Positions 10,723-58,236 of a stretch of 64,000 bases of DNA are shown one piece after another. Numbering within the stretch: the first letter of the stretch is position 1; each line of letters starts with the position of its first letter. The DNA is taken from positions 1-64,000 of the forward strand of contig JAIVJI010000068.1 in NCBI GenBank assembly GCA_020200135.1, written 5' to 3'. The translations under genes were made by a program, and so were the position numbers. The notes beneath the pieces are model-generated. The model made no database searches. It was not told where the DNA came from and was given only the letters and a program-made list of their open reading frames with translations. This DNA comes from Acidobacteriota bacterium. Lineage in GTDB: Bacteria > Acidobacteriota > Blastocatellia > Pyrinomonadales > Pyrinomonadaceae.

Positions 10723-10840
10723 GGGAGTAGACAGTAGACAGTAGACAGTAGGCTCCGCTCTCTGGGCGCTGACGCTGACACGCGGACGACTCGACTGACG
10801 ACTGTCTTTCTACTGACTACTGTCTACTGCCTACTCCCCT
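10723..10840. repeat. Heptad foldback repeat, family 1 (AGTAGAC), copy A
   Basis: Left arm gggagtagacagtagacagtagacagtagg; right arm ctactgactactgtctactgcctactcccct; loop starts ctccgc. Confidence 0.9.
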
Positions 10841-10881
10841 CCGCTTGACCCACGCCCGCCGGGCGGGCAGGATTTCAGCCT

Positions 10882-12972
10882 ATGTTTTACCAAGCCCCCG
10901 CCGCTGAGCAGTCCGGCCGCGTCTCCCGCCTTAAGAAAATCGCCCTCTTCGCCGTCGCGCTGGCGGGACTCTCGCCGTGCGCCCGTGCGCAGACGCCGGC
11001 CGGGGTGTTCGAGCGCGAGCTGGACGCGTCGGGGCCGGTCGAGCTGCGCGTGAAGAACCGCACGGGGCGCGTGACCGTGATGGCCGAGGAGGGGCTCAGG
11101 CAGGTCTCGATACGCGCGACCTCGGCCGCCGGCCTCGGCGTCGGCGAGAAGGACGTGCGCGTCACGCACGGCGGGGCTGCTGTCCAGATAGAGGTCGAGC
11201 GCGAGTCCGCGTCGTCGCGCCTGTCGGACGGCCGCAAGGTCGTCGCCTCGCCCGCGCAAATCGAGCGCGAGCGGATAGACCTCTCGGTGCGCGTCCCCGT
11301 GCGCTCGCGCGTGTGGGTCGAGACCGAGGCGGGCGCGGTCGACGTGGTCGGCAACCTCGCGGAGGCCGAGGCGAAGACCGACACCGGGACGATACGCGCC
11401 GACGTGCCGATGGACGCGCTGCGCTACAGCTTCCGCTGGACGGTCAGCCGCCCGCGCTTCTTCAGCGAGGTCGAGCTGCCCGAGGCCAAACACAAGCGCG
11501 GCGGCTTCTTCGAGATCGCCGGCCGCTTCCCCGACGAGAAGGAAGAGGGGAAGGACAAGAAGAAGCAGGGCGAAGAGGCGGCCGACGGGGCGCCCGAAGA
11601 AGTAGTCGAAGCCGAGCCCGCCGCGACCGCCACGCCGGATGTAAAGGCCGAGCCGAAGACCGAAGCAGAGAAGAAGGCCGCGCGCGCGCGCGCCGAGGCG
11701 GCGAAGGAGGAGGAGGGGCGGAAGCGGGAAGAGGCGAAGAAGAGGGCAGAGGCCGCGAAGGCAGAGGCGAAGAAGAGAGCCGAAGCCTTACGCGCCGAAG
11801 CGAAGAAGGCCGCCTCAGACCAGCGCGTCAGGCTGAGCCTCGAGACGGCGCGCGGCGTCGTCCTCTTCGGCGTTAAGAACGAGGCGCGCGTCCCCTCAGA
11901 CCTGCGCGAGCGCACGCTCACCGACGCCGCGCGCGCCATCATCCGCAGCGGCGACACCGAACTCATCGACGCCATCCGCAAGGTCGCGCCGCGTCTCGTC
12001 GGCGAGTACGCCGAGACGTTGGGCCTGCGCGGCCGCGGCCCCACGCTCGGCTCGCGCGCCGCCTCGCCCTTCGACGTGCGCGCGGCGGCCGGCCCCTCGC
12101 TCGCGCGCGTGCAGGCGCGCGTCACAGACCGCACGGGTCGCGCCGTCACCGGACTCGCCGCCAAAGACTTCACCGTCACCGAGGGCGGCGTCGAGCGCGC
12201 CGTGCGCGACGTGCAGCCGACCACCGCGCCCTTCAACCTCGTCCTGCTGCTCGACGTGTCGGGCAGCGTCGAGGAGCGGATAGACTTCATACGCAAGGCC
12301 GCGCTCGCCTTCCTCAACACCGCCGGCCCGCACGACCGCATCGCCATCGTCAGCTTCCGCGACGACGTGCAGCTCGTCTCCGAGTTCACCTCCGACCGGG
12401 CGGTGCTGACCGAGCGCATCAAGGACATCCAGGCCGGCGGCGCCACCTCGCTCTACGACGCGCTCGGCTACTCGCTCGTCCACGTGCTCCGCCCGCTGCG
12501 CGGCGAGCGCACCGGCGTCGTGGTGCTTTCGGACGGCGACGACAACCGCTCGTTCCTGAGCTTCCCCACCATCGTGGACGCCATCCACGAGACGGGCGCC
12601 ATCGTCTACCCGCTCTACGTCCCGTCGGGGCTCATCCCCTCCTCGGGCGCGCCGGCGGCCGCGACGACGCTCGACCCGACCCGCACCAGATTCCTCGAGC
12701 TGACCTCGCGCGCCGACGAGGAGGGGCGGCGTCTGGCCGAAGTCTCGGGCGGGCAGTACTACCCCATCACGCGGCTCGAACAGTTGCAGCGCGCCTACGA
12801 CGACGTGGCCGCGCAGCTGCGCACGGCCTACACCATCACCTACGAGACGGACGGGGCCGCACGCCCCGACTCGCGCGTGCGCGTGCGCGTGTCGCGCGAC
12901 GGCGCGTCAGTGCGCCTGAGCCCGGCGGTCGGCGTCTCGGCCGCGACCGCCGTGGCCCCGGCGGCGCCGTAG
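10882..12972 (+). CDS. VWA-domain secreted protein (VWFA-related) with long K/E/A-rich segment
   Basis: LVLLLDVSGSVEERIDFIRKAALAFL...VVVLSDGDDNRSF; middle EKKAARARAEAAKEEEGRKREEAKKRAEAAKAEAKKRAEAL. Confidence 0.8.
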   Translation: MFYQAPAAEQSGRVSRLKKIALFAVALAGLSPCARAQTPAGVFERELDASGPVELRVKNRTGRVTVMAEEGLRQVSIRATSAAGLGVGEKDVRVTHGGAAVQIEVERESASSRLSDGRKVVASPAQIERERIDLSVRVPVRSRVWVETEAGAVDVVGNLAEAEAKTDTGTIRADVPMDALRYSFRWTVSRPRFFSEVELPEAKHKRGGFFEIAGRFPDEKEEGKDKKKQGEEAADGAPEEVVEAEPAATATPDVKAEPKTEAEKKAARARAEAAKEEEGRKREEAKKRAEAAKAEAKKRAEALRAEAKKAASDQRVRLSLETARGVVLFGVKNEARVPSDLRERTLTDAARAIIRSGDTELIDAIRKVAPRLVGEYAETLGLRGRGPTLGSRAASPFDVRAAAGPSLARVQARVTDRTGRAVTGLAAKDFTVTEGGVERAVRDVQPTTAPFNLVLLLDVSGSVEERIDFIRKAALAFLNTAGPHDRIAIVSFRDDVQLVSEFTSDRAVLTERIKDIQAGGATSLYDALGYSLVHVLRPLRGERTGVVVLSDGDDNRSFLSFPTIVDAIHETGAIVYPLYVPSGLIPSSGAPAAATTLDPTRTRFLELTSRADEEGRRLAEVSGGQYYPITRLEQLQRAYDDVAAQLRTAYTITYETDGAARPDSRVRVRVSRDGASVRLSPAVGVSAATAVAPAAP

Positions 12973-12995
12973 CCTTTCGACGAACAAGGGGTGAG

Positions 12996-14132
12996 ATGTT
13001 TTCAACTTCTTCCGTGGCGCGTGGCCGGAGACTTCTCCTCGCGCCGCTCTTCGCGCTTCTCATCCTGACGGCCGCGCCCGCCGCGCGAACCGCGCGCGCG
13101 CAGGAGCCGACGCCCGCGCCCGAAACTCGGCCGACCCCGACGCCCGCGCAGACGCCTACACCAACACCTACACCGACGCCCAGCCCGACGCCGGTTCCCA
13201 CGCCCACACCGACGCCGACGCCCGACGACGCGGAGCCGATCGAGCGCATCGACACAGACCTGACGAGCGTGCTGCTGTCGGTGTTGGACAAGAAGCGGCG
13301 CTTCGTCAACACGCTCCGCGCCGGGGACGTGCGCGTCGTCGAAGACGGCGTCCCGCAGCAAATCGCCTCCTTCGAGCAAGAGACCAACGCGCCGCTCTCG
13401 CTCGTCCTGCTCGTTGACCTCAGCTCCTCGCAGGCCGGTGTGCTCCCCGCCGAGCGGGACGCGGCGCGCTCGTTCGTCGCCTCCGTCCTCAAGCCGCGTG
13501 ACCGCGCCTCCCTCATCACCTTCACCGGACTTACGCGACTCGACCAGTCGTTGACCGACGACAGGCCGCGACTTGAGGCGGCGATTGATTCGCTCAAGCC
13601 GTGGTTCAGAGAGGACAGCCCCGAGTGCGCCCCGGACGCGCCGGAGGAGGGCAAGATACATTGCTACACGGCCATCTGGGACAGCATCGCCATCGCCGTC
13701 CGCGAGGTGCTGGCGCGCACGCCCGAGCGCACGCGCCGCGCCATCATCCTGCTCTCGGACGGCGAGGACACGAAGAGTAAGCTGCGCCTCTACCAGGCGG
13801 TGGACTACGCCGTCCGCCACAACACGGTCGTCTACGCCATCGGCATCCGCGACCGCCGCGCGCGCGAGGGCGAGATGCGCCCCGACTTCCTGCGGCAGGT
13901 CTCCGAGGGGACGGGCGGCCGCGCCTTCTTCCCCAAAAAGCCCGCCGACCTCGGCGCCGCCTTCGCGCAGATCGAGCAGGAGCTGCGCTCGCAATACCTC
14001 ATCACCTACTCCCCCACGAACCGCGCCCGCGACGGCTCCTTCCGCCGGCTCCGGATCGAAATCACCGACCCCCAACTCAAGAAGCAGAACCTCCGCCTGC
14101 TCTACCGGCAGGGCTACTTCGCAAAACAGTGA
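12996..14132 (+). CDS. VWA-domain secreted protein (VWFA-related) with Pro-Thr linker
   Basis: PTPAQTPTPTPTPTPSPTPVPTPTPTPTPDD; LVLLVDLSSSQAGVL...AIILLSDGEDTKSK; C-terminal LRLLYRQGYFAKQ. Confidence 0.8.
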   Translation: MFSTSSVARGRRLLLAPLFALLILTAAPAARTARAQEPTPAPETRPTPTPAQTPTPTPTPTPSPTPVPTPTPTPTPDDAEPIERIDTDLTSVLLSVLDKKRRFVNTLRAGDVRVVEDGVPQQIASFEQETNAPLSLVLLVDLSSSQAGVLPAERDAARSFVASVLKPRDRASLITFTGLTRLDQSLTDDRPRLEAAIDSLKPWFREDSPECAPDAPEEGKIHCYTAIWDSIAIAVREVLARTPERTRRAIILLSDGEDTKSKLRLYQAVDYAVRHNTVVYAIGIRDRRAREGEMRPDFLRQVSEGTGGRAFFPKKPADLGAAFAQIEQELRSQYLITYSPTNRARDGSFRRLRIEITDPQLKKQNLRLLYRQGYFAKQ

Positions 14133-14136
14133 GGCA

Positions 14137-14199
14137 GTTTTTAATTTTCAGTACAGCCAAAGCTCCCGACTGAAAACTAAAAACTGAAAACTAAAAACA
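14137..14199. repeat. Heptad foldback repeat, family 3 (CTGAAAA/CTAAAAA)
   Basis: cagtttttaattttcagt ... ctgaaaactaaaaactgaaaactaaaaac. Confidence 0.8.
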
Positions 14200-14206
14200 G
14201 TCCTCT

Positions 14207-14238
14207 TGCCTTTTCATCCCTCATCCTTCATCCTTCCG
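14207..14238. repeat. Solo heptad arm (TTCATCC) upstream of xseA
   Basis: ttttcatccctcatccttcatccttcc. Confidence 0.6.
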
Positions 14239-14246
14239 CTACGGTC

Positions 14247-15653
14247 ATGACTCGCCCCATTCTGATGTCTCTGTTCGACGAGACCGAGCGCCGGCCGCTG
14301 ACGGTCTCGGAGCTGACCTCGCAGGTGCGCGGCGCGCTGGAGGGCCGGTTCGCGTCGCTGTGGGTCGAGGGCGAGATTTCCAACTTCCGCGCGGCCGCCT
14401 CGGGTCACTGGTACTTCACCGTCCGCGACGAGGCGGCGCAGCTGCGCGCGACCTGCTTCCGCGGCGTCAACTCCCGCATACGCTTCCGCCCCTCGGACGG
14501 GCTGCTCGTCCGCGTCCGCGGCCGCATGACCGTCTACGAGCCGCGCGGCGAATACGAACTCATCGTCGAGGCGCTCGACCCCGTCGGCGCGGGCGCGCTG
14601 CGCGTCGCCTTCGAGCAACTTAAAGAGAGGCTCGCCGCCGAGGGTCTGTTCGACGAGGCGCTCAAGCGCGAGCTGCCCGTCCTGCCGCGCCGCGTCGGCG
14701 TGGTGACGAGCCCCACGGGCGCCGCCGTCCGCGACATCATCCGCACCATCGAGCGGCGCACGCGCACCGTCAGCATCCTCCTCGCGCCGACGCGCGTGCA
14801 GGGCGAGGGAGCCTCCGCCGAGGTGGCGCGCGCGATAGGGGCATTGAACGAACACCACCTGCGCGCCGTGGCCGAAGGGGCGGCCGACGAGCAGTTGGAC
14901 GTCATCATCGTCGGGCGCGGCGGCGGGTCGAGTGAAGACCTCTGGGCCTTCAACGCCGAGGAGGTGGCGCGCGCCATCCGCGCCTCCGTCGTGCCCGTCA
15001 TCTCGGCCGTCGGGCACGAGACCGACTTCACCATCGCGGACTTCGCGGCCGACGTGCGCGCCGCCACGCCGACGGCCGCCGCCGAGATAGTCGCCGAGCG
15101 CGAGGACGAGATAGGCGGTTACGTCGAGCGGCTGACGCACGGCCTCGTCAACGCGGCGCGCTACCGCCTGCTCGCCGAGCGCGCGCGCGTGCAGGAGGCG
15201 GCGATGTCGCCCGGCTTCGACGAGGTCAGGATGCGCCTGAGGGTCGCGCGCGAGGAGCTTCAGGACGTGCGCTGCCGTCTTGAGAACCGCGCGGGGGATT
15301 TGAGCCGCGCCGCGCGCAGACGACTCGACGCCGCCGTCCGCGGACTCTCGCCGGCGCGCATGGCTTCGGCCGCGTCGCGGGCCCGCGTGCGCCTGACCGT
15401 GGGTGGCGCGGCGCTGGAGGCGGCGGCGCGCGCGCGCCTCGAAGACGCGCACACGCGTCTGGCGGTCGCGGCCGCCGCGCTCGACGCGATGTCGCCGCTC
15501 GCGGTTCTGGGTCGCGGCTACGCGCTGGCGCAGGACGAGCGCGGGCGCGTGCTGCGCTCGACGCGCGGCGTGGCCGAAGGTGACGGCGTGCGCCTGCGCC
15601 TGGCGTCGGGCGCGCTGCGCTGCCGCGTGGAAAGGGTCGAGGGGGAGAACTGA
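14247..15653 (+). CDS. xseA: Exodeoxyribonuclease VII large subunit
   Basis: LTVSELTSQVRGALEGRFASLWVEGEISNFRAAASGHWYFTVRDEAAQLRATCF; GRGGGSSEDLWAFNAEEVARAI. Confidence 0.95.
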   Translation: MTRPILMSLFDETERRPLTVSELTSQVRGALEGRFASLWVEGEISNFRAAASGHWYFTVRDEAAQLRATCFRGVNSRIRFRPSDGLLVRVRGRMTVYEPRGEYELIVEALDPVGAGALRVAFEQLKERLAAEGLFDEALKRELPVLPRRVGVVTSPTGAAVRDIIRTIERRTRTVSILLAPTRVQGEGASAEVARAIGALNEHHLRAVAEGAADEQLDVIIVGRGGGSSEDLWAFNAEEVARAIRASVVPVISAVGHETDFTIADFAADVRAATPTAAAEIVAEREDEIGGYVERLTHGLVNAARYRLLAERARVQEAAMSPGFDEVRMRLRVAREELQDVRCRLENRAGDLSRAARRRLDAAVRGLSPARMASAASRARVRLTVGGAALEAAARARLEDAHTRLAVAAAALDAMSPLAVLGRGYALAQDERGRVLRSTRGVAEGDGVRLRLASGALRCRVERVEGEN

Positions 15654-16382
15654 ATGCCGCAGGGGCACAAGAGCCGCATCGTGATTGACGTCGACCGCGT
15701 GCGCGCGGAGGCCGCGCAGAAGCGCGCGCGTCGCTTCGGGCCCGCCGGGCGCGCTGGGCGCGCGCTGGGCGTGACGGGGCTGGTCGTCGTCGGCCTCCTG
15801 CTCGTCGCGCTCGCCGGCTCGTACGCGTGGTGGCAGGGCTTCAAGAAGAGCCCGCCCTACAGCCTCGCGCTGCTGCTCGACGCGGCGCAGCACGACGACG
15901 TGCAGGCGGTCGAGACCATGATCGACGCGGACCAGATAGCGCAGGGCTTTGTCCCGCAGGTCATCGAGAACCTCGCGGGCGCGGGCTCGCCGATATCGCC
16001 GCAGGCGCGCGCGTCTCTGACGACGGCGCTGCCCGCCCTGCTCCCGCGCGTGCGCGAGACGATGCGCGACGAGATTGCGCGCTCGCTGAAAACGCTCTCG
16101 CAGGGCGACTCGCAAAACGTGCCCTTCTTCGTCAAGGCGCTCGGCGTCAGACGGATGGCCGACGTCAACGAGCGGGAGGACGTCGCCGACGTCAAGGTCA
16201 GGGCGGGCGAGCGCCAGGTAGACCTCTCGATGCGTCGCGACGGCGAGCGGTGGAAGGTCGTCACGGTCAAAGACCCGCAGCTCGCCTCGGAGATCGCCGC
16301 GCGCCTCGCCGCGAGCCTGCCCGCCGGCGGGCAGACGCCGCAGCAGCAGCAGAACCAGCCGCGCCGCAGGGGAACGAGATAG
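15654..16382 (+). CDS. Membrane-anchored protein, DUF2939-like
   Basis: One TM helix then KSPPYSLALLLDAAQHDDVQAVETMIDADQIAQGFVPQVIENLA. Confidence 0.55.
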   Translation: MPQGHKSRIVIDVDRVRAEAAQKRARRFGPAGRAGRALGVTGLVVVGLLLVALAGSYAWWQGFKKSPPYSLALLLDAAQHDDVQAVETMIDADQIAQGFVPQVIENLAGAGSPISPQARASLTTALPALLPRVRETMRDEIARSLKTLSQGDSQNVPFFVKALGVRRMADVNEREDVADVKVRAGERQVDLSMRRDGERWKVVTVKDPQLASEIAARLAASLPAGGQTPQQQQNQPRRRGTR

Positions 16383-16384
16383 AG

Positions 16385-16681
16385 ATGGCCAAACGTGAAC
16401 CGAAGAGCGGGGCCGCCGCGACGAACTTTGAAGGACAGCTCGCGTCGCTGGAGCGCATCGTGAGGGAGCTTGAGCGCGGCGACCTGCCGCTGGAGCAGAG
16501 CCTCGAGCTGTTCGAGCAGGGCGTCAAGCTCTCGCGCGAGTGCCAGGAGCGTCTCAACGAGGCCGAGCGGCGCGTCGAGGTGCTGCTGCGCGGCGGCGAC
16601 GGCTCGACCATCGCCGTCCCGTTCGAGTCGGACGAGTTGATAGAGGACGAACCGGAGGCGGATGACGAGACCGTCTTCTGA
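16385..16681 (+). CDS. xseB: Exodeoxyribonuclease VII small subunit
   Basis: NFEGQLASLERIVRELERGDLPLEQSLELFEQGVKLSRECQERLNEAERRVEVL. Confidence 0.92.
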   Translation: MAKREPKSGAAATNFEGQLASLERIVRELERGDLPLEQSLELFEQGVKLSRECQERLNEAERRVEVLLRGGDGSTIAVPFESDELIEDEPEADDETVF

Positions 16682-17624: not shown

Positions 17625-17643
17625 GCGACCGGAGCAGGAGTCA

Positions 17644-17706
17644 GGGGAAAAGCCGAAGGGGTAAGGGAGAGACTTCCGTCCCCCCTTACCCCTTCAACTT
17701 TACCCC
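17644..17706. repeat. Heptad foldback repeat, family 4 (GGGGTAA), copy 1
   Basis: ggggaaaagccgaaggggtaaggg / cccttaccccttcaactttacccc, loop agagacttccgtcc. Confidence 0.8.
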
Positions 17707-17718
17707 GGCCTTCGGTCT

Positions 17719-18639: not shown

Positions 18640-18869
18640 GTGGCTCCTTTCGGCCCGCGCCCCGCGCTGGCGCGCCGGGTCGGGGCGGTGAGTGGGAGGC
18701 GGCCGCCGCCACGGACGCTTCTTCAAGAGTCGCGGCAGCCCCCCGTGCTTGAACGGGTCGCCTTACGGATTAGGCTTTGCTCGGCGGGGAGACGGAATGT
18801 AAGCGGGGCGCTAATCAGCGGCGACGGTTGTCTGAAGGGACTTTCATGGGTGGGATTGTAGCATAAGAG

Positions 18870-18946
18870 CGTGAACCGTAAATCGTAAACCGTGACGAGA
18901 AAGAACAGGCTCTCCTCTCGTCACGGTTTTCGGTTCACGGTTCACG
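18870..18946. repeat. Heptad foldback repeat, family 2 (GTGAACC/GTAAACC), copy 1
   Basis: cgtgaaccgtaaatcgtaaaccgtgacgaga / tctcgtcacggttttcggttcacggttcacg. Confidence 0.9.
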
Positions 18947-19223: not shown

Positions 19224-19246
19224 GCGTTTGAAAGGTCGGGTGAGTT

Positions 19247-19684: not shown

Positions 19685-19750
19685 CTGGATTCGTTCGCGG
19701 GGAGCGCCGGCCGGGGCCCTTCACCCGTCCGCCCGTACACGGCCTCAGAT

Positions 19751-19797
19751 GATAAATCGAAAACCCAAAATCGCAAATCCGAAACCACCAAAAAAAC
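19751..19797. repeat. Solo heptad arm, family 9 (AAATCGA/AAACCCA)
   Basis: gataaatcgaaaacccaaaatcgcaaatccgaaaccaccaaaaaa in divergent intergenic region. Confidence 0.55.
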
Positions 19798-21465: not shown

Positions 21466-21572
21466 GGGAAGGCGAAAGGCAAGCTTCAAAAGACGAGAAT
21501 TGGAGGGTGAGGGCCGGGCCGCTTCTCACCCTCCTTTTCCCTTTTACAGTTCGCCTTTTGCCTTTTGCCTTA
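21466..21572. repeat. Heptad foldback repeat, family 5 (AAGGCAA)
   Basis: aaggcgaaaggcaa...tggagggtgag / ctcaccctccttttccc...gccttttgccttttgcctta. Confidence 0.75.
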
Positions 21573-25209: not shown

Positions 25210-25328
25210 TAAGTAGACAGTAGTCAGTAGTCAGTAGTACAGCTTTCATCAATCGCCCCGTCACTATACCCGTCAACGGCCGCGACGCGGAGCGCTACTG
25301 ACTACTGACTACTGACTACTGTCTACTG
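25210..25328. repeat. Heptad foldback repeat, family 1, copy B (inverted orientation)
   Basis: aagtagacagtagtcagtagtcagtagt / ctactgactactgactactgactactgtctact. Confidence 0.9.
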
Positions 25329-26607: not shown

Positions 26608-27598
26608 ATGGCAACACCCGGAGCAGGTAAGCGCAGCCGCGTCTCGCAGAAGGCGAGCCGCTTCACGGAGTCGGTCATCCGCGAGATGACGCGCGAGGCG
26701 CTCAAGCACGGCGCGGTCAACCTCTCGCAAGGGTTCCCGGACTTCCCCGCGCCCGAAGACCTCAAGCGGGCGGCCGCCGCCGCCATCGGCGACGACGTCA
26801 ACCAGTACGCCGTCACCTGGGGCGCGAAGGACTTCCGCGAGGCCATCAGCGACAAGACGCAGTGGTTCCTCGGTTTGACTTACGACCCGGAGACCGAGAT
26901 CACGGTCACCTGCGGCTCGACCGAGGGCATGATCGCCGCGATGATGGCGACCGTCGACCCCGGCGAGGAGGTCGTCGTCTTCGAGCCCTTCTACGAGAAC
27001 TACGCGCCCGACGCGGTGCTCTCCGGCGCGACGCCGCGCTACGTCTCCCTGAGACCGCGTGGTCGAGCACGTCTCGATGGCGCAGTTGGAAGGGATGAGG
27101 GAGCGCACCGTCGTCGTCAACTCGATGTCGAAGACCTACTCGGTGACGGGCTGGCGCGTCGGCTACGTGCTCGCGCCGGCGGACGTGACGGGCGCCGTGC
27201 GCAAGGTGCACGACTTCCTCACCGTCGGCGCGGCCGCGCCGCTCCAGCGCGCGGGGGCCTACGCCCTGCGCATGCCGCCGGAGTATTACGAGGGGCTTCG
27301 GCGGGAGTACGAGCGGCGGCGCGACATGCTGCTGCCCGCGCTCGAAGAGGTCGGCTTCAAGGTCTTCCGTCCCGACGGCGCGTACTACGTGATGACCGAC
27401 ATCGGCCGCTTCGGCTTCCGCGACGACGTGGAGTTCACGCGCCACCTCATCCAGGAGGTCGGCGTCGCCTGCGTCCCCGGCTCAAGCTTCTACAGCCGCC
27501 CCGAACTCGGCGCGCGCCAGGTGCGCTTCTGCTTCTGCAAGAAGGACGAGACGCTCGAAGCGGCGGCCGACCGCCTGCGCAAGCTGCAAAGCTACTGA
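26608..27598 (+). pseudogene. PLP-dependent aminotransferase (class I/II), interrupted by internal deletion/frameshift
   Basis: N part AVNLSQGFPDFPAPEDLKRAAAAAIGDDVNQYAVTWGAKDFREAI... to PRYVSLRP; C part in another frame EHVSMAQLEGMRERTVVVNSMSKTYSVTGWRVGY...; NxPNNPTGK region absent. Confidence 0.8.
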
Positions 27599-27610: not shown

Positions 27611-27802
27611 ATGTGGGACAGGAAGCGACAACTCGTCTGGCTCGGGGTCGGCCTCCTCTTCGGCACCTTCTCGCTCTACCCGCTCGCGCGCGACGACGCC
27701 GGCCGCTTCGACCTCCAGTACTTCGTCCAGCTCGAAGTCCTGCTCGTCCTCGTCATCTGCGTCATGTTCTACGTCTACGGCCGGAAGGGTGAGAAGTGGT
27801 GA
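27611..27802 (+). CDS. Small two-TM hypothetical protein (63 aa)
   Basis: RQLVWLGVGLLFGTFSLYPLA...VQLEVLLVLVICVMFYVYGRKGEKW. Confidence 0.6.
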   Translation: MWDRKRQLVWLGVGLLFGTFSLYPLARDDAGRFDLQYFVQLEVLLVLVICVMFYVYGRKGEKW

Positions 27803-27871
27803 GTGACGGGCGATAAGAAGAAACAAGCGGGGCTTGTCTTCTCTTATCGCCCGTCACTCACCACTTCTCAC
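27789..27871. repeat. Foldback repeat, family 7, in 7-nt register (GTGAGAA GTGGTGA GTGACGG)
   Basis: gtgagaagtggtgagtgacgggcgataagaag / cttctcttatcgcccgtcactcaccacttctcac. Confidence 0.8.
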
Positions 27872-28559
27872 TGTCCGGGCTGTTGGAGCTTGTGGCGGAC
27901 GGCGACGCCCTCGCTGGGGACGACGAGGAGGCGGCGCGCGTCGAAGAGCGGGAGGCTGGTCGGCGTGTAGGCGAGCACGTAGCGGTTCTTGCGCAGCTCG
28001 TCGCAGATGGCCTTGGCCGCGTCGCGCGAGTCGTTGACCGAGAGCACGCGCCCGCCCGTGTCGTGTGTGAGCTTCTGGATGGCCTGCGCCGGCTTCAGGC
28101 GGTCGCGCCTGAGCGCCCCGCCCGTGCGGTCCGGAATCTGGAGCGCGTAGACCGTGATGTCCTGCCGGAGCAGGCCGTCGTAGATTTTCTGGAAGTGCGT
28201 GCGGCTGCCGCGGTCGAGCCCGTCGGCGACGAGCACGATGACGCGCTTGCGCGTCCGCCCGACGAGCGGGCCGAAGGCGTCGTCGATGACCGCCGAGAGC
28301 GCGTCGAAGAGCCGCGGCTCGCCGCGCTTGCGGAAGAGGGGGAGCGCCGCCTCGATCTGTCGTAGAGCGCGATGTCCTTCGAGGTGACGCGCTCGTCCGA
28401 GCCGTCCTCGCGCAGCGCCGTGACGTTGACGAACATCCCGCGGTCTCTGTTGATGTCGGCCTCGGCGCCCGTGCGGCGCCCCGCCTGCCCGGCCGCGAGA
28501 CCCGCGAGCAGGAGGCAGATGACGAGCGGCGCCGTGGCCGCCTTGAAGGTTGCGCGCAT
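27868..28559 (-). pseudogene. VWA-domain (VWFA-related) protein with internal deletion/frameshift near 28358
   Basis: N part MRATFKAATAPLVICLLLAGLAAG...GMFVNVTALREDGSDERVTSKDIALYD; C part in other frame RQIEAALPLFRKRGEPRLFDALSAVIDDAFGPLVGRTRKRVIVLVADGLDRG; MIDAS region missing. Confidence 0.75.
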
Positions 28560-29916: not shown

Positions 29917-30018
29917 GACGAAGGGAAGATGAGGGGCGCGCCGCCCCTCATCCTTAGCGACCGAGGGACGAGGGCGACGCCGCTCCTCGTCCCTCTTCGC
30001 TTTTGGCTTTTGCCTTCG
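29917..30018. repeat. Compound foldback/heptad intergenic repeat
   Basis: gatgaggggcg..cgcccctcatc, agggacgag..ctcgtccct, then cttttggcttttgccttcgcc. Confidence 0.6.
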
Positions 30019-30165
30019 CCCGACCGCCTTGCTATGATTTGCGCCCGACAAAATCCACGGGGCGCTTGGCTGAAGGTTGCGTGACGGACTCTCTCCTCAT
30101 TCGGATTCGCCGCGACGCCCGCCAGCAACAGACTTAATCTCTGCCGAAGGAGTACCCCCAAGCAG

Positions 30166-35043: not shown

Positions 35044-35156
35044 AGTAGTCAGCAGGCGGTGGCGCTCCGCGCTGCGGTCGTTGATTCAGAGACCCGGACG
35101 TTCCGGCCGCGAAAGATTCTTCTACTGACTACTGTCTGCTGACTACTGTCTACTCC
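35043..35156. repeat. Heptad foldback repeat, family 1, copy C (shortened left arm)
   Basis: gagtagtcagcagg / ctactgactactgtctgctgactactgtctactccc; core ggcgctccgcg...gcggtcgttga. Confidence 0.85.
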
Positions 35157-39624: not shown

Positions 39625-40634
39625 GAGCTTTGAGACATGGACTCGCGGGGCTTTTCGTCCTGCTCGGCGCGTTGGCCTGCCCGCCCGCGACGTTCGCGCA
39701 GGGCGGCGCCCCCGCGCAGGCCCCCGCGCGGGCGGCGTCGAAGTCCGAGCCGGCCGTGCTCGAAACGCCGGGCGGCAAGCTGCACGGCACGCTCGAGTTG
39801 CCGGCGGCGGGGCGCGCGCCCTACCCCGTCGTGCTCATCATCGCGGGTTCGGGGCCGACCGACCGCAACGGCAACTCGGCCGCCCTCCCCGGCGCGAACA
39901 ACAGCCTCAAGTATTTGGCCGAAGGGCTCGCCGCGGAGGGCATCGCCTCGCTCCGCTGCGACAAGCGCGGCGTGGCCGAGAGCGTGATGGCGGCGAAGTC
40001 CGAGTCGGACTTGCGCTTCGACACCTACATCGAGGACGCGGTGCTGTGGGGCCGGAAGCTGCGCGGCGACGCGCGCTTCTCCGCGCTCGTCGTCGCCGGG
40101 CACAGCGAGGGCTCGCTCATCGGCATGGTCGCGGCGCGGACGCTCGGCGCCGACGGGTTCATCTCGGTCGCCGGCGCGGGGCGGCGCATCGACGTCGTCA
40201 TCCTCGAACAGGTGAAGCCGCAGTTCACGCCCGAGCAGTACGCGAAGACCGAGGCGGGCCTCAAGTCGCTGCTGGAGGGCAAGACGATTCCCGACGTCCC
40301 GGCCGACGACATCCTCTTCCGCCCGAGCATCCAGCCCTACATCATCTCGTGGCTCAAGTACGACCCGGCGAAGGAGGTCGCCAGGCTCGCGGTGCCCGTC
40401 CTCGTCACGCAGGGGACGCACGACTTGCAGGCCCGGCCCGAGGACGCGAAGGCGCTCGCGGCGGCGAAGCCCGACGCGCGGCTCGTGCTCGTCGAGGGCA
40501 TGAACCACGTCCTCAAGATGACGCCCGCCGACCCGAAGCAACAGGCCGCCTCCTACAGCGACCCCGCGCTCCCGGTCGCGCCCAAATTTCTCGCGGAGGT
40601 CGCCGCCTTCGTCAAGGGGGTTAAGAAGAAGTAG
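39621..40634 (+). CDS. Secreted alpha/beta hydrolase
   Basis: YPVVLIIAGSGPTDRNGNSAALPGANNSLKYLAEGLAAEGIASLRCDKRGVAES...VVAGHSEGSLIG. Confidence 0.85.
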   Translation: MRALRHGLAGLFVLLGALACPPATFAQGGAPAQAPARAASKSEPAVLETPGGKLHGTLELPAAGRAPYPVVLIIAGSGPTDRNGNSAALPGANNSLKYLAEGLAAEGIASLRCDKRGVAESVMAAKSESDLRFDTYIEDAVLWGRKLRGDARFSALVVAGHSEGSLIGMVAARTLGADGFISVAGAGRRIDVVILEQVKPQFTPEQYAKTEAGLKSLLEGKTIPDVPADDILFRPSIQPYIISWLKYDPAKEVARLAVPVLVTQGTHDLQARPEDAKALAAAKPDARLVLVEGMNHVLKMTPADPKQQAASYSDPALPVAPKFLAEVAAFVKGVKKK

Positions 40635-40748
40635 ACGGTAGACAGCAGTCAGTAGCCAGTAGGCTCCGCCCAACGGATGCTGACGCTGACACCCTGACGG
40701 CTCGATATAACGAATGCTTTTCTACTGACTACTGACTACTGTCTACTG
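40631..40748. repeat. Heptad foldback repeat, family 1, copy D
   Basis: agtagacggtagacagcagtcagtagccagtagg / ctactgactactgactactgtctactg; loop ctccgc...gctgacgctgacac shared with copy A. Confidence 0.9.
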
Positions 40749-40756
40749 ATTCAAAG

Positions 40757-41578: not shown

Positions 41579-42597
41579 GCCACGAACAGGACAACCCCGA
41601 GACGGACGCCGGGACGGTCGCGGCCGGCGCCGCCCTTGAGCCGGGGGCCGAGCCGCTCACCTTCGTCGCGGGGGCGTCGGACGCGGGCGCGCGACTCGAC
41701 GCGTTTCTGGCCGCGAGGGTCGAGGGCGTGAGCCGCTCGACCCTGAAGCGCGTCATCGACGACGGCGACGTGCTCGTGGGCGGGCGCGCGGCCAAGCCCT
41801 CGCACAAGCTGAAGGCGGGCGAGCGCGTCGAGGTCGAGCTGCCCGCGCCGCCGCCGTCCGAGATAGAGCCCGAGGAGATTCCGCTCGACATCCTCCACGA
41901 GGACGACGAGGTCGTCGTCGTCAACAAGCCCGCCGGCCTCGTCGTCCACCCGGCGTCGGGCGTCCCCGGCGGGACGCTCGCCAACGCGCTCGCCTTCCAC
42001 TTCGCGCGGCTGGCGCCGGGCGGCGGCGCGCTCCGCCCCGGCATCGTCCACCGGCTCGACCGCGACACCTCGGGCGCCATCGTCATCGCCAAGACGGCGC
42101 GCGCGCACGAGCACCTTTCGGACCAGTTCCGCGCGCGCACGGTCTTCAAGTCCTACGCCGCGCTCGTCCACGGCGTGACGAAGGAGGAGAAGGGGAAGGT
42201 CGAGGAGCCACTCGCGCGCGACCCGCGCAACCGCACGCGGATGGCCGTCGCGCGCGGCGGGCGGGCGGCCCTCTCGCTCTGGCGCGTGCGCGGCCGCTAC
42301 GAGCGCATGACGCTCCTCGACGTGCAGATCAAGACCGGCCGGACGCACCAGATACGCGTCCACCTCGCGTGGCTCAAGCACCCCGTCGTCGGCGACGAGA
42401 GCTACGGCGGCGGGCGCGACAAGACCATCGCCGACCCACTCTTGCGCGCGCGCGTCCGCGGGCTCGGCCGCCAGTTCCTCCACGCCGAGCGCCTCGGCTT
42501 CCACCACCCCTCGACGGGCGAGTGGCTGAGCTTGACCGCGCCGCTCCCGCCCGAGCTGTCCGACTTCCTCGCCGCGCTCGAACCGGGAGGGAATTAA
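41575..42597 (+). CDS. rluD: RluA-family 23S rRNA pseudouridine synthase
   Basis: GIVHRLDRDTSGAIVIAKT; S4-like N-term; KTGRTHQIRVHLAWLKHPVVGDESYG; ATGA overlap with lgt. Confidence 0.88.
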   Translation: MSHEQDNPETDAGTVAAGAALEPGAEPLTFVAGASDAGARLDAFLAARVEGVSRSTLKRVIDDGDVLVGGRAAKPSHKLKAGERVEVELPAPPPSEIEPEEIPLDILHEDDEVVVVNKPAGLVVHPASGVPGGTLANALAFHFARLAPGGGALRPGIVHRLDRDTSGAIVIAKTARAHEHLSDQFRARTVFKSYAALVHGVTKEEKGKVEEPLARDPRNRTRMAVARGGRAALSLWRVRGRYERMTLLDVQIKTGRTHQIRVHLAWLKHPVVGDESYGGGRDKTIADPLLRARVRGLGRQFLHAERLGFHHPSTGEWLSLTAPLPPELSDFLAALEPGGN

Positions 42598-42678
42598 CAT
42601 GGATGGACAGGATTGACAGGATGAGGGATTGAAAATCTTAAATCCTTATCCTGTCAATCCTGTCCATCCATGTTAATT
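42592..42678. repeat. Perfect 31-bp inverted repeat built on 9-nt units (GGATGGACA/GGATTGACA)
   Basis: aattaacatggatggacaggattgacaggat / atcctgtcaatcctgtccatccatgttaatt. Confidence 0.9.
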
Positions 42679-42825
42679 CGTCCCCACGCTTCGCGGCCCG
42701 GTCGCCGTTGCTTTATACTGTCCGGCACTGGGGAAGCAACGACCGCGCCGGCCGCGGGCATCGAAAGGGGTGCTCGAATCGGCTGAAAACCCCGAGGTTT
42801 CACCCGCGCTCCCCTTCATTCGCCT

Positions 42826-43848
42826 ATGAACAACCCGAGACTCTGGCTTTCGCTCGCCGCACTCGCCTGCGCCCTCTTGGGCGCGGCCGCCGCCCCGCGC
42901 CCTTCGGGGGCGCAGACGCAGGCACCCGCCGCCCCGCGCCAGACGCCGACGCCGCCGCGCGACGAGGTCGAGGGCACGGTCGTCTCGCGCGTGGTGCGCG
43001 TCCCCGTCACCGTGCTCGACAAGAAGGGGACGCCCGTGACGGGGCTGACGCGCGACGACTTCCTCGTCTTCGAGGACAAGCGCCCCGTCCAGTTCGACTT
43101 CCTCGGCGAGATCAAGGAGCTGGAGAAGCTCCCCATCTACATCGGCGTCCTGATGGACACGTCGAGCTCGACCTCAGGCAAGCTCGGGTTCGAGAAGGAG
43201 GCGGCGATGAACTTCTTCGACGTCGTCACGCGCTCGCGCAAGGACTGGGGCGCCTTCGTCACCTTCGACGACGAGGTCAAGCTCCGGCAGGACTTCACGC
43301 GCAACCTCGACCTGCTCAGGAAGGCCATCGACGGCGTGAAGAAGCCGGGGACGCAGACCTCGCTCTTCGACGCCATCTGGCAGTTCTGCGACCAGAAGAT
43401 GCGCGGCGTGCCCAGCCCGCGCCGCGCGCTCGTCATCATCACCGACGGCGACGACACCTACAGCCGCGCGCGCATCGAAGACGCCATCGCCATCGCGCAG
43501 AAGACCGACACCATCATCTTCTCCATCTCGACCAAGGGCGGCTTCATCGGGAGCGCGGTGCCCGGCGTCGAGGCCGGCACGGTCAAGGACTCGGGCGACA
43601 AGGAGCTGCAGAAGCTGGCGCAGGAGACGGGCGGCCGCGCCTTCTACACCGGCGACATGCTCGCGCTCGAACGCGCCTTCAAGAAGATCGGCGAGGAGCT
43701 GCGCTCGCAGTACCTTTTGACCTACCGCCCCGAGGGCCCCTTCGACGGCGGCTACCGCCGCATCGAGGTCAGGGTCGCCACCGGCGAGAAGTACAAGGTC
43801 AACTCCAAAAAGGGCTACACCGCCGACAGGGATTTGTTAAGCAAGTAA
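42826..43848 (+). CDS. VWA-domain secreted protein (VWFA-related)
   Basis: VPVTVLDKKGTPVTGLTRDDFLVFEDKRPVQFDF; IGVLMDTSSSTSGKL; VIITDGDDTYSRA; ELRSQYLLTYRPE. Confidence 0.85.
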   Translation: MNNPRLWLSLAALACALLGAAAAPRPSGAQTQAPAAPRQTPTPPRDEVEGTVVSRVVRVPVTVLDKKGTPVTGLTRDDFLVFEDKRPVQFDFLGEIKELEKLPIYIGVLMDTSSSTSGKLGFEKEAAMNFFDVVTRSRKDWGAFVTFDDEVKLRQDFTRNLDLLRKAIDGVKKPGTQTSLFDAIWQFCDQKMRGVPSPRRALVIITDGDDTYSRARIEDAIAIAQKTDTIIFSISTKGGFIGSAVPGVEAGTVKDSGDKELQKLAQETGGRAFYTGDMLALERAFKKIGEELRSQYLLTYRPEGPFDGGYRRIEVRVATGEKYKVNSKKGYTADRDLLSK

Positions 43849-43921
43849 ACCGTGAACCGTAAACCGTGACGAGGTAAAACCAAATCTTACTTGTCACGGT
43901 TCACGGTTCACGGTTCACGAG
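43845..43921. repeat. Heptad foldback repeat, family 2, copy 2
   Basis: gtaaaccgtgaaccgtaaaccgtgacga / tgtcacggttcacggttcacggttcacgag. Confidence 0.9.
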
Positions 43922-50474: not shown

Positions 50475-50565
50475 CCTCGGTCCTCCCGGCCTTTTTGCTT
50501 GTCGATGCTTGCGGCGATTCTAAAGCACAAAGCGCGCGCGCGGAAGGGCGGCCGCGTCGGCCGCC

Positions 50566-50988: not shown

Positions 50989-50996
50989 AAAAAAGT

Positions 50997-51067
50997 GCTG
51001 AAGGCCGAGTGCCGAGAGCCGAGTGAAGAACGAGCCCCCACTCAGCCCTCGGCACTCGGCCCTCAGC
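50997..51067. repeat. Heptad foldback repeat, family 8 (GCCGAGT)
   Basis: gctgaag gccgagt gccgaga gccgagt / actcagc cctcggc actcggc cctcagc. Confidence 0.85.
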
Positions 51068-51074
51068 AATTCAT

Positions 51075-51398: not shown

Positions 51399-51634
51399 CC
51401 CGGCGTGAAAATTACCAGCCGGCGCCGGGTCAACGCAAACGGGGCGGGGCGCGCGTGCGCCGCGAAGGCGACGGCAGACACTTGCGGCCGGGCGCCCGGC
51501 GTCGTAAAATCCCCCGTCCGTTCCCTGGGCCGCGGAGCCACCCCTCCGAGTGCCGCCGCCGCGCCCTTTGTCGCCTGTGACGACCGCCCCGACCTTTTTC
51601 GGCCAGGCTTTTCTCCATCCGAAAGGCTCTCAAG

Positions 51635-53698: not shown

Positions 53699-53738
53699 CC
53701 GCGGACGCGCGGCGGGCGGCCCCCGCCTACGAGAAGGA

Positions 53739-55584
53739 CGTGCCCGGCGTCGTCGTCAACGACGAGCAGGTCATCACGGTCGGCGAGGACAGCCGCGTCA
53801 CGACCGTCACCACCTACGCCGTCCGCTTCCTCACGCGCGCGGGCTTCGGCTACGCGAGGGCCGCCGCCGCCTACGACACCGCCAGCGGCGGCAAGGTGAC
53901 CGAGATTCGCGCCTGGCTCATCCGCCCCGACGGCAGCGTCAAGAAGTACGGGAAGGACCACGTCGTTGACCGCATCGCCGACGCCGACAACCTCTACGAC
54001 GAGTCGCGCGTGAAGTACATCGACGCGACGCGCGACGCCGAGGTCGGCGCGGTCTTCGGCTTCCAGACGACGACGGCCGAGCCGCGGCCGTGGTTCCCGC
54101 AGGCCGAGTGGTGGTTCCAGGCAAGCCTGCCCGCGCTCTCGTCGCGCTTCACGCTCGTGCTCCCCGCGGGCTGGCGCGCGTCGGGCACGGTCTACAACGC
54201 GGCGAAGGTCGAGCCGACCGTGAGCGGCAACTCCTACACGTGGGAGATGCGCTCGCTCGCGCGCGTCGAGGACGAGCCCGCGAGCCCGAGCGTCCGCTCG
54301 CTGGCCGCCCACCTCGCCGTCAAGTACGGCCCGCCGGCCGCGTCGTCGTTGTCGGCCGGCGCGTTCAGGAGCTTCGACACCTGGGCGGACGTGTCGCGCT
54401 GGTACACCGAGCTGGCCGACCCGCAGGCCGCGCCCGACGACGCCGTCGCGCTCAAGGCGCGCGAGCTGACGGCCGGCGCCAAGACCGAGCTGGAGAAGAT
54501 ACGCGCCGTCGGCCGCTACGTGCAGAACCTCCAGTACGTCTCCATCCAGGTCGGCATCGGCGGCTGGCGCCCGCACGCGGCGACGCAGGTCTTCGCCAAG
54601 CAGTACGGCGACTGCAAGGACAAGGCGACGCTGATGCGCGCGATGCTGCGCGCGCTCAAGGTGGAATCCTACGCCGTGCTCATCTACTCGGGCGACCGCA
54701 CGCGGGTGCGCGAGGAGTGGGTCTCGCCCGGACAGTTCAACCACTGCATCCTCGCCGTCCGCGTCTCCGAGGAGACGAGGGCCGCCTCGGTCGTCCAGCA
54801 CCCGACCTTAGGCCGCCTCCTCATCTTCGACGCGACCGACCCCTCGACGCCCGTCGGCGACCTGCCCGACCACGAGCAGGGGAGCTTCGCGCTCGTCGCG
54901 GCCGGCGACGGCGGCGCGCTCCTGCGCATGCCCGTGACCGCGCCCGAGGAGAACATGGTCAGCCGCGAGGTCGAGGCCGGGCTCGCGGCCGACGGCTCGC
55001 TCACCGCCACGCTGCGGCTGCGGAGCGTCGGGCAGTCGGCGGCCGACGCGCGCCGCATGTTCAAGGGGCTGGCGCCCGCGGACTACACGCGCGTCGTCGA
55101 GCGCTGGGTCTCGCGCGGCGCGGCCGGCGCCCGGTTCAGCAAGATCGAGCCCGCGGACGCGCACGCCGAGGGGCGCTTCGCCCTCGACGTGGAGTTCACC
55201 GCCGCCGCCTACGCGCAGTCGATGCAAAACCGCCTGCTCGTCTTCAACCCGGCGGTGCTCGCGCGCGGCAGCTCGGTCCAGCTCTCGGGCGCGGCGACGC
55301 GCAAGTACCCCGTCGTGCTCGAGTCCAACGCCTTCTCCGAGACGGTGCGCTTCAAGCTCCCCGCCGGGTTCGACGTGGACGAGGTGCCCGACCCCGTCAA
55401 GATAGATTCGGAGTTCGGCAGCTACACCGCCAGCTACGAGGTCAAGGACGGGCAGCTCCTCTACACGCGCAAGTTCGTCCAGCGCGCCGCGACCATCCCC
55501 GCCGACAAGTACGGTGACGTGCGCGCCTTCTTCGGCCGCGTCCGCGCCAGCGAGGAGTCGCCCGTCGTCCTCGCGCGCAAGTAG
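53739..55584 (+). CDS. DUF3857/transglutaminase-like protein, N-terminus apparently missing
   Basis: Open from stop of upstream gene; ...YEKDVPGVVVNDEQVITVGEDSRVTTVTTYAVRF; TQVFAKQYGDCKDKATLMRAMLRAL; no signal peptide or ATG. Confidence 0.75.
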
Positions 55585-55590
55585 GGCTGA

Positions 55591-55622
55591 AAGCAGCAGA
55601 CGGTAGTCAGTAGCCGGTAGAA
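55591..55622. repeat. Degenerate solo arm of heptad family 1, copy E
   Basis: agcagcagacggtagtcagtagccggtagaa. Confidence 0.65.
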
Positions 55623-55644
55623 AAACATCGGCGGGCGTTGCGGT

Positions 55645-56334
55645 TTAACCGCTGCGGTGGAGCGTGAGCCGCTCGAGCCGGAGCGCGTGGTCGTAGTAGA
55701 CGTGGTCGAGGTGGAGGAAGGGGAGCGCGCCCGGGTAGGTGCGGCGCGTGCGCAGGTGCTGGCGCAGGTCGGCGCTGCGCAGCTCGTGCGAGAGCAGGCG
55801 CGAGGCCAGCCCGTGCGTCCACTCGTTGAAGTCGCCGAGGACGACGCGCGGGCCTTCGAGCCGCGGGTCGCGCAGGACGGAGTCGCCGACGAGCTTGCGC
55901 CCCTGGTGGCGGCGCTCGACGAAGGCCGTGCCGAGGTGGACGTTGAAGAGGTGTATGACGGGCGCGCCCGGCTGGTTTACGCTCAGGTCAACGCGCAGCG
56001 CGCCGCGCGGCTCCTGCCAGCGCCAGGTGATGTCGTAGTTGTGGCAGTGGACGACCGGGAGCCGCGTCAGCACGACGTTGCCGTAGGCGCCGCCGCGGTG
56101 CTTGCGGTTCTCGCCGAGGTGGTACCGGCAGCCAAGCTCCTCGGCGATGAAGCGCGCCTGGTGCGCCTCACGCGACGAGTCCGAATCGACGCTCACGACC
56201 TCCTGCAGCGCGACGACGTCGGCGCCGACCTCGCGCAGCACCGCCGCGATGCGGCCGGGGCGCTCGCGCCGGTCGAGCCCGATGCACTTGTGCACGTTGT
56301 ATGTGACGACCCGCAGCCGCCCGTCCTTCAGCAT
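55645..56334 (-). CDS. Endonuclease/exonuclease/phosphatase family protein
   Basis: LRVVTYNVHKCIGLDRRERPGRIAAVLREVGADVVALQEV; VVLGDFNEW. Confidence 0.9.
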   Translation of the reverse strand: MLKDGRLRVVTYNVHKCIGLDRRERPGRIAAVLREVGADVVALQEVVSVDSDSSREAHQARFIAEELGCRYHLGENRKHRGGAYGNVVLTRLPVVHCHNYDITWRWQEPRGALRVDLSVNQPGAPVIHLFNVHLGTAFVERRHQGRKLVGDSVLRDPRLEGPRVVLGDFNEWTHGLASRLLSHELRSADLRQHLRTRRTYPGALPFLHLDHVYYDHALRLERLTLHRSG

Positions 56335-56373
56335 CCCCCCGACTGTTCCCCCCGTCTTCCGCGCGCCGGCGCT

Positions 56374-56958
56374 TCAGTCGCCCAGCAGCTCGCCGACCGT
56401 CATCTCGAAGCCCGCCAGCACCGTGCCCTTGATTCTGTCAGCCCCGCCCAGCTCCGTCAGGACGTAATGCTTCTTCCGTAGAACGAGCTGCGCGATGGTT
56501 CGTTCCTTCACGTCAACTATCCAATACTCGCGCACGCCATTCTTCTCGTAAAGATTTCGCTTCGTAACGGTGTCATGCTTGACGGAGCCGGGCGAGAGGA
56601 TTTCGACCAGGAACGGCGGTGCATCATTAACCCGGTTGGCCGCGCGAGCCCGCCCGGTCTGTTTTGCGTTGAGGAGAAAGATGTCCGGCTGCACTACCTC
56701 ACCGGACGGCAGTACCACGTCGAGCGGCGAGATGAATATCTCACCTGATAGGCTTTGACTGATAAACTGTTGAAGAGCAGAGGCCATTTTCAGAATGGTT
56801 CTCTGATGAGCAACGGTCGGTGTAGGTGCCATGATGATCTCCCCGTCGATGTACTCGGTGGGAAGAACGGACTCGGGGAGCGACCAGAACTCTTCGATGG
56901 ACGCTCGGCGGCGGATGAGGCGTTCTTCGGTCGCCTGCTCTAAGACTTCCGTGGCCAT
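56374..56958 (-). CDS. Uma2-family (DUF820) PD-(D/E)XK-type protein
   Basis: EYIDGEIIMAPTPTVAHQRTILKMASAL; VVQPDIFLLN; PPFLVEILSPGSVKHDTVTKRNLYEKNGVREYWIVD. Confidence 0.88.
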   Translation of the reverse strand: MATEVLEQATEERLIRRRASIEEFWSLPESVLPTEYIDGEIIMAPTPTVAHQRTILKMASALQQFISQSLSGEIFISPLDVVLPSGEVVQPDIFLLNAKQTGRARAANRVNDAPPFLVEILSPGSVKHDTVTKRNLYEKNGVREYWIVDVKERTIAQLVLRKKHYVLTELGGADRIKGTVLAGFEMTVGELLGD

Positions 56959-57159
56959 CTCTTGAAACTCCCCGGGGTCGTGGCGGCCCCCGTCAAAGTT
57001 GAACTGTGTCGTGGCGGGATTTTATCACGGCCCGACGCGGGCCGGCGTCCCTGGTCGGCCGGAGGTCTCGCGGGCGCGGCCGTCGGGCGTTTTAAAAAAG
57101 GCGCGGGGTGGTTTATTGTCGCCGCGCGAGAATTCCGGCGGGGAGGTGACGGAGGCGGG

Positions 57160-57363
57160 ATGGCAGACGAGAGCAACACAGACATCACGGGCGGCACGGA
57201 CAAGGCCGGCCCCGGCGGGGTGGCCTCCGGCGACATGCCCGACAAGGGCGGCGAGACGGGCGTCCGCGAGACCGGCGACATCTCCGGCGCGACCTCGACA
57301 CACGCCGGCGCGGGCGGCAACTTCGACAACACCGGGGGCACCGGCACGGCGCCGACGGAGTGA
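57160..57363 (+). CDS. Small Gly/Thr-rich hypothetical protein (67 aa)
   Basis: MADESNTDITGGTDKAGPGGVASGDMPDKGGETGVRETGDISGATSTHAGAGGNFDNTGGTGTAPTE; good upstream GGAGG. Confidence 0.55.
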   Translation: MADESNTDITGGTDKAGPGGVASGDMPDKGGETGVRETGDISGATSTHAGAGGNFDNTGGTGTAPTE

Positions 57364-57560
57364 AAATGAGGGGCACACGAAACCCTCCAACGCGCCCCCT
57401 TTTGGTGCAGGCTCGGGGCGCGAAATCGGTCGAAAAGCTCCGTTTCTCAAGCCTTTTTACGGGCGCGTCGCGGCACGCCGGTTGTTATGTGTAACGTGGC
57501 CGGCGGCGCGCGTGTGCGCGGGCGGCAAACAAGTTCGGGAAAGGCCGGAGGACGTAGTCG

Positions 57561-58160
57561 ATGTTAAAGAAAGCTCTCGTGAATTTCGTGCCGGCGGGCA
57601 GGGCGCTCGCGGTCGCGCTCTGCGTCCTGACGCTGGGCGTCGCGGCGCAGGCGCAGGGGCGCTCGCCCATCGAGCGCTGGGGCAGCAAGATCGTGGACGT
57701 GAAGGTCGGCGAGCTGACGCTGGAGTCGATAGACTTCCGCGACCAGACCGCGCGCCTGAGCCTCGGGATCGAGACGAACAGCCTCGTCCCCGTCACGCTG
57801 AAGGACTTCGACTACAGGCTGCGGCTCGCGGGCGAGGACGCCATCGAGGGCGTGTACGGCGGCGACCTGAAGGTAGGCGGGCGCAGGGGCTCGCGCGTCC
57901 GGCTGCCGGTGGTCGTCCACCTGCGCTCGATCCCGAACGTGGTCTGGTCTGCGTTCCGCAGCCAGGGGCGCGTCGCCTACGAGCTGGACAGCGGCTTCAC
58001 CGTCCCGCTCTTCGTCACCGAGCGCCGCTTCGACCAGAGCTTCGCGGGCGAAGTCCCGCTGCGCTCCCTCGTCGACGCCGCGACCATCCTCCGCGCCAGC
58101 CGCGGCGCGGGCGTGCGCGACAACGGCGGCCGTATCCTCGGCAACATCTGGCCCTTCTGA
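57561..58160 (+). CDS. LEA14-like (LEA type 2) protein
   Basis: SKIVDVKVGELTLESIDFRDQTARLSLGIETNSLVPVTLKDFDYRLRLAGE. Confidence 0.65.
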   Translation: MLKKALVNFVPAGRALAVALCVLTLGVAAQAQGRSPIERWGSKIVDVKVGELTLESIDFRDQTARLSLGIETNSLVPVTLKDFDYRLRLAGEDAIEGVYGGDLKVGGRRGSRVRLPVVVHLRSIPNVVWSAFRSQGRVAYELDSGFTVPLFVTERRFDQSFAGEVPLRSLVDAATILRASRGAGVRDNGGRILGNIWPF

Positions 58161-58174
58161 GACCCGCGGGGTCT

Positions 58175-58236
58175 GGGGAAAAGGGGAAGGGGCAAGGGAG
58201 AGACTTTCGTCATCCCTTGCCCCTTCCCCTTTTCCC
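58175..58236. repeat. Heptad foldback repeat, family 4, copy 2
   Basis: gggaaaaggggaaggggcaaggg / cccttgccccttccccttttccc perfect arms; loop agagactttcgtcat matches copy 1. Confidence 0.85.

Follow-up and report, generated by a model that had tools for sequence, protein, structure and literature searches.

Heptameric foldback families at gene ends of a soil acidobacterium and their exchange at orthologous sites

Intergenic foldback repeats with stems made of successive 7-bp units were analyzed in a 64,000-nt stretch of contig C91 of a draft acidobacterial genome (the whole stretch is referred to here as the window) and were then compared across that genome, G000, and its relatives. These non-coding elements are roughly 60–130 bp long, belong to many families that are dispersed through the genome, and lie at the 3′ ends of genes. 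Congeners usually have a hairpin at the orthologous site too, and its unit is often an unrelated one. The reading that we favor, with a probability of about 0.6, is that the foldbacks are small, dispersed hairpin elements of many families, which would be replaced at gene-end sites and would drift by 7-nt slippage.

Detection and families of heptameric foldbacks

The host is a soil acidobacterium (Acidobacteriota, Blastocatellia, near Pyrinomonadaceae); the nearest relatives of its isoleucyl-tRNA synthetase were Acidobacteriota metagenome-assembled genomes (MAGs), followed by Pyrinomonadaceae and other Blastocatellia. The assembly totals 5.27 Mb in 137 contigs, and the GC content of the window is 69%. 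Three congeners (G001, G002, and G003) were used for comparison, and the drafts of G000 and G001 are 91–93% complete. Hairpins of the host genome were counted in 855 kb (16% of the genome), and array periods in the first 460 kb.

Strong intergenic inverted repeats (score of at least 16) numbered 120, compared to at most one in shuffled intergenic sequence. The arms of 70 of these hairpins matched themselves by at least 60% at a lag of 7; the remaining lags between 3 and 12 accounted for zero to two apiece. Intergenic tandem arrays with a period of 7 were found at 64 per 100 kb (0 in shuffled and 2.1 in coding sequence), an excess that was confined to this period and its multiples 14 and 21, other periods being found at ~3–7 per 100 kb. 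In 67 named loci of relatives, almost all from Acidobacteriota, intergenic arrays of periods 5, 6, 7, 8, and 9 numbered 1, 5, 142, 18, and 10, respectively, and an inverted partner was present for 85 of the 142 period-7 arrays. A 50-kb control from E. coli K-12 contained zero arrays at periods 4–12. Heptameric foldbacks are beyond chance and extend far outside the window. A first-pass annotation of the window had proposed a multi-family system with one architecture and many heptamers in one genome; the proposal was supported, its loci were recovered, and the check set with it (7-nt autocorrelation above shuffled sequence, and presence in relatives), applied to relatives and to 16% of this genome, gave a positive result.

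The AGTAGNC family comprises 26 foldbacks, all of which carry AGTAG in the left arm and CTACT in the right (polarity 26:0). Most of their loops, of ~57 nt, hold core A (GCTCCGC...GGTTTTT) or core B (GGCGGCGCG...CGCGCCGCC), both essentially restricted to the interior of AGTAG arms; core B by itself forms a GC hairpin. In this family a shared core lies between terminal inverted repeats, as in miniature inverted-repeat transposable elements (MITEs); other families do not all have this arrangement. Members of the CGTRAAC family have a short loop and a conserved apex, GTGAC[AG]AG. Arrays of CCGTRAA gave 190 matches in G000 and were present in 2 of 296 other genomes from a phylum-wide sample that held no congener; relatives of the CCGTRAA/CGTRAAC element are numerous in the congeners. 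Several genera contain AGTAGTC arrays, and the loops were different in the one genus examined. Across 51 genomes, which are non-independent and include four congeners, 15 heptamer classes recurred in at least three genomes, compared to 1.1 from shuffled units.

Certain families are dispersed elements, each marked by a defined core or apex and amplified inside one genus. Generation de novo at each site fails to account for copies that have such a core or apex in common and are restricted to one genus. Carriage of foldbacks by phages was rejected, with only 23 and 31 matching stretches among 2.9 million viral contigs. A genome from another family (G038, loci L113–L119) contains very long heptamer arrays of more than 15 units, with several kinds adjacent or nested.

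Gene ends and orthologous sites

Hairpins occupied 49 of 89 convergent gaps, 66 of 319 tandem gaps, and 5 of 90 divergent gaps. Within tandem gaps, the median distance between the upstream stop codon and the beginning of a heptameric foldback was 1 nt, with 45 of 46 lying within 20 nt, and the median distance between its end and the start of the next gene was 20 nt. These stop and start distances differed at p ~1e-7; distances of a few nucleotides are soft because genes were called with a simple caller based upon GC content at third codon positions (GC3) and because arrays often contain stop codons. A tandem gap minus its foldback measures ~22 nt, which is the size of an operon junction. This placement may be favored because the next ribosome-binding site stays free.

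Sites of foldbacks in G000 were compared with their orthologs in G001–G003 (flanks 71–92% identical, 25 comparisons). An unrelated foldback was found in ~16 of 25, a member of the same family in ~6 (one of them drifted), and no hairpin or other sequence in 3, the family classes being assigned by an alignment cutoff with two cases reassigned by eye. The site at 10723, for example, holds AGTAGAC in G000, AATGATG in G001, and AGTGATG in G002. Hairpins were present in congeners in 21 of 25 comparisons where G000 carries one versus 23 of 78 where it has none (p = 2e-6), a difference that persisted when counted by site (12 of 13 versus 14 of 41, p = 3e-4) and within tandem gaps (9 of 13 versus 15 of 60, p = 0.007), with gap length incompletely controlled. 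This suggests that the position of the hairpin persists while its sequence is exchanged. Change within a family was seen at 43845, where GTAAACC became GTAAATG/GTGAATA in place with both arms changing together, and a filled/empty pair was found at 27590.

In one block G002 and G003 are 97.7% identical, and the foldbacks seen there do not differ, so family swap is slower than this divergence. The block itself (9.36 kb; L106/L108, G002:C94 and G003:C18) lies within a background of 82–90% identity, which suggests recent interspecies transfer or shared bin content.

The same block bears on whether the pattern could be an artefact of metagenome bins assembled around inverted repeats. The genus genomes examined are all drafts or MAGs, and two apparent deletions in the window suggest local assembly trouble: G000 is without ~204 nt at 27045–27052 (in frame, in an aminotransferase-like open reading frame) and without 220 nt at 28358/28359, both common to the congeners and each a deletion or an assembly error. 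Given identical foldbacks in the differently named assemblies of G002 and G003, recurrence of the pattern across many genera and projects, and similar inverted heptamer pairs in Xanthomonas genomes (PMC4692102), an artefact is very improbable.

The elements of the window are listed in Table 1. The recurrence of three families in five, two, and two copies had been counted correctly in the first-pass annotation. True heptameric foldbacks number ~11–12, however, and not the ~15 that it gave; the count is lower because the TTCATCC and AAATCGA arrays are direct, with no inverted partner found, the element at 42591–42679 has a 9-nt unit, that at 27777–27883 is weakly periodic, and that at 29950–30040 is one-armed. 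When nine window elements were folded as single-stranded DNA, z ranged from −3.9 to −9.3. No Rfam family matched within the window. Some foldbacks are nested, as in G002 at window site 51398. The family at 42591–42679 (AATTAACATGGATGGACAGGATTGACAGGAT, 9-nt unit) has ~9–10 copies in the 855 kb, including copies on C76, C95, C123, C33, and C29.

Table 1 Foldbacks and heptamer arrays in the window, with their counterparts in congeners
Element	Position	Observation
AGTAGNC foldback, core type A	10723–10838	tandem gap, directly 3′ of stop codon; DNA fold z = −7.05
CTGAAAA/CTAAAAA foldback	14135–14198	purine polarity opposite
TTCATCC direct array	14213–14236	no inverted partner found
GGGGNAA-type foldback, degenerate	17639–17711	convergent gap
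CGTRAAC foldback	18870–18946	conserved apex GTGAC[AG]AG; dozens of relatives per congeneric genome
AAATCGA (19754)/degenerate AAATCNN direct heptamers	19745–19790	intergenic gap; no inverted partner seen
AAGGCAA/AAAAGGC outer arms, partly overwritten by inner hairpin	~21500–21571	ortholog in G002 is an AAAAGGC foldback
AGTAGNC foldback, core A reversed	25212–25327	convergent gap
Long hairpin, weak 7-nt periodicity (0.50)	27777–27883	orthologous site in G001 is a CGTRAAC foldback
One-armed AAAAGGC foldback remnant	29950–30040	intact foldback in G001 and G002
AGTAGNC foldback, left arm degenerate	35045–35154	same site in G002/G003 is an AAATC/GATTT foldback
AGTAGNC foldback, core A	40630–40752	site holds AAAAGGC in G002, GCAGTAG/GCAGATG in G003
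Non-heptameric foldback, 9-nt unit, dispersed family	42591–42679	empty at the G002 site; G003 has a GCAGTAG foldback
CGTRAAC foldback	43845–43918	G002 has the same family, G003 a drifted unit (GTAAATG/GTGAATA)
GCCGAGT foldback	50996–51068	heptameric foldback
AGTAGNC left arm, remainder degenerate	55594–~55680	convergent gap; only left arm clear
GGGGNAA foldback, arms perfect	58176–58236	same family in G002; other hairpin in G003

Origin and turnover of the foldbacks

Arms of the short-loop CGTRAAC family agreed with each other above family expectation (z = 3.9 for the inner alignment of 13 elements), whereas those of the long-loop AGTAG family did not (z = −0.7 for 35 elements). The first suggestion of a general generating mechanism, templated slippage or duplication of hairpins, is therefore supported in part: templating of one arm by the other has support in the former family and not in the latter, and hairpin templating as the source of all arms was rejected because AGTAG arms are independent. 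A purely mutational origin would have polymerase slippage that favors 7 nt, together with hairpin-templated copying, produce foldbacks de novo in any sequence free of coding constraint, with nothing mobile. It fits a period of 7 that is specific across many genomes, the agreement of short-loop arms, and the commonness of heptameric simple sequence repeats (SSRs) in bacteria, for which a 7-nt polymerase contact has been proposed (Mrazek 2007, as cited in PMC4679880). Such an origin is nonetheless unlikely, given the independent long-loop arms, the many copies with a common core or apex, the restriction of families to a genus, and the sharing of heptamers between genomes far above shuffled units.

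Under the favored reading of dispersed elements replaced at gene ends, new family members would be copied into gene-end gaps by a putative activity, and insertions would persist only if they fell into the interval from a stop codon to the next ribosome-binding site or into one that separates two stop codons. The hairpin at a given gene end would then mostly be kept or replaced and seldom lost, either because a 3′-end hairpin is useful (as a terminator or as protection of the mRNA 3′ end) or because existing hairpins attract insertions. Arms would subsequently lengthen, shorten, and homogenize in 7-nt steps via slippage, and in short-loop elements one arm would additionally template the other. 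Dispersal, position, occupancy, and swap were observed; that the elements are mobile, that they are replaced, and that they bring any benefit is inferred.

Several results weigh against this reading. Y1 transposase (PF01797) was absent from G001, G002, and G003, and the reverse transcriptase domain RVT_1 was absent from the 91–93% complete drafts of G000 and G001. Direct words flanking the elements were no longer than those of permuted pairs, which gives no sign of target-site duplication. Transcript-oriented arm mismatches were G-U in 77 cases and A-C in 71, with no G-U excess. Clean empty/filled pairs are few. To these are added the simple gene caller, the draft or MAG status of every genome examined from the genus, the cutoff and eye used for the family classes, and the partial control of gap length in the occupancy test.

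The searches for mobilizing enzymes bear most directly on elements of the repetitive extragenic palindromic (REP) or REPIN type, which would be moved by a REP-associated tyrosine (RAYT, Y1) transposase, or on copies made by a reverse transcriptase. Small palindromes dispersed at gene ends resemble such elements, and AGTAG includes GTAG, which is the tag of a REP superfamily (PMC3733652). The other heptamers are without GTAG, however, target duplications are absent, and PF01797 in G000 consisted of two IS200-size matches only (G000:C104:37351 and 51441, 14 kb apart). With no Y1 transposase in congeners that are rich in foldbacks, the RAYT route is largely refuted; both it and mobilization by reverse transcriptase were rejected, and this class of explanation has hardly any probability left. 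Insertion into the centers of older palindromes was also rejected, as outward complementarity was no better than with permuted partners, even though a few foldbacks are nested.

Selection for terminators or mRNA 3′-end hairpins alone would have any hairpin suffice, so that sequence turns over and structure and place are kept. The gene-end position with its avoidance of divergent gaps, the conserved occupancy with exchanged sequence, and the GC hairpin of core B are as expected from such selection, and so is T-rich sequence 3′ of the stems, where at least five T were found in 8 of 46 tandem heptameric foldbacks versus 27 of 493 in the background. This enrichment is modest, and a strong T tract is missing from most stems; many foldbacks also lie in operon-like junctions with ~22 nt of other sequence. 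Because A-C mismatches are as frequent as G-U, pairing at the RNA level is not visibly maintained, and RNA-level selection detected through wobble asymmetry was rejected. On its own, selection leaves the 7-nt units and the dispersed families unexplained and is slightly less likely again than a purely mutational origin. Of the initial suggestion that RNA hairpins are selected, the gene 3′-end position fits and the expected G-U excess is absent. The first-pass interpretation as a whole was partly supported.

A bolder form of replacement is conceivable and rather doubtful, in which gene 3′ ends would be exchangeable hairpin cassettes, an undescribed activity would recognize foldbacks or gene ends and swap families, and 7 bp would be the unit of recognition or synthesis. 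If true, cassette swapping would link the abundant intergenic heptamers to one replicating system.

Related repeats and significance

SDR elements (small dispersed repeats), attributed to Elhai et al. 2008 in Nostoc, are reportedly very small, structured, dispersed elements within heptamer arrays that are thought to be mobile. They are said to be sequences of 21–27 nt inside direct heptamer arrays, whereas here the heptamers are the hairpin arms themselves.

Heptamers are the most abundant intergenic tandem repeat in many prokaryotes, and there is no clear function or agreed origin for them (PMC6344855). The arrays described here are tandem, degenerate 7-nt units that are mainly intergenic, as are the heptameric SSRs or short tandemly repeated repetitive (STRR) sequences of cyanobacteria, Beggiatoaceae, and Geobacter, with which they share a scattered phylogeny. 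Known cases mostly have one or few direct-repeat heptamers per genome (TAACTGA, PMC4679880; GGGACCG, PMC2700814), whereas in this genus the arrays are mostly inverted arms and many families coexist. There is also a likeness to the GGGAATC inverted pairs of Xanthomonas (Rehm et al. 2015, PMC4692102), which were reported as convergent arrays (70 and 75 cases) near stop codons, scarce between divergent genes, with positions that are conserved from one species to another. Two nearby arrays in convergent orientation were likewise found here. The Xanthomonas pairs belong to one heptamer family that is kept at 83% of Xcc/Xac sites; here the family is often exchanged, with an unrelated one in ~16 of 25 orthologous comparisons, and specific cores are present. 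REP/REPIN elements and MITEs are likewise short palindromic repeats that are non-coding, dispersed, and situated at the ends of genes, and the present foldbacks differ from them by the lack of RAYT in congeners and of target-site duplications, by heptameric stems, and by many unrelated families.

In a literature search that reached few subscription papers, neither the coexistence of many heptamer families that form foldbacks nor their exchange between orthologous sites was found to have been reported. Repeats of heptamers have been described before, with inverted pairs among them in Xanthomonas; the turnover of many families at conserved sites seems to be new. A genus with heptamer families turning over at fixed gene ends is a natural experiment for separating slippage, transposition, and selection. 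The position of a hairpin may be conserved without conservation of its sequence, and standard intergenic comparison would miss such cases.
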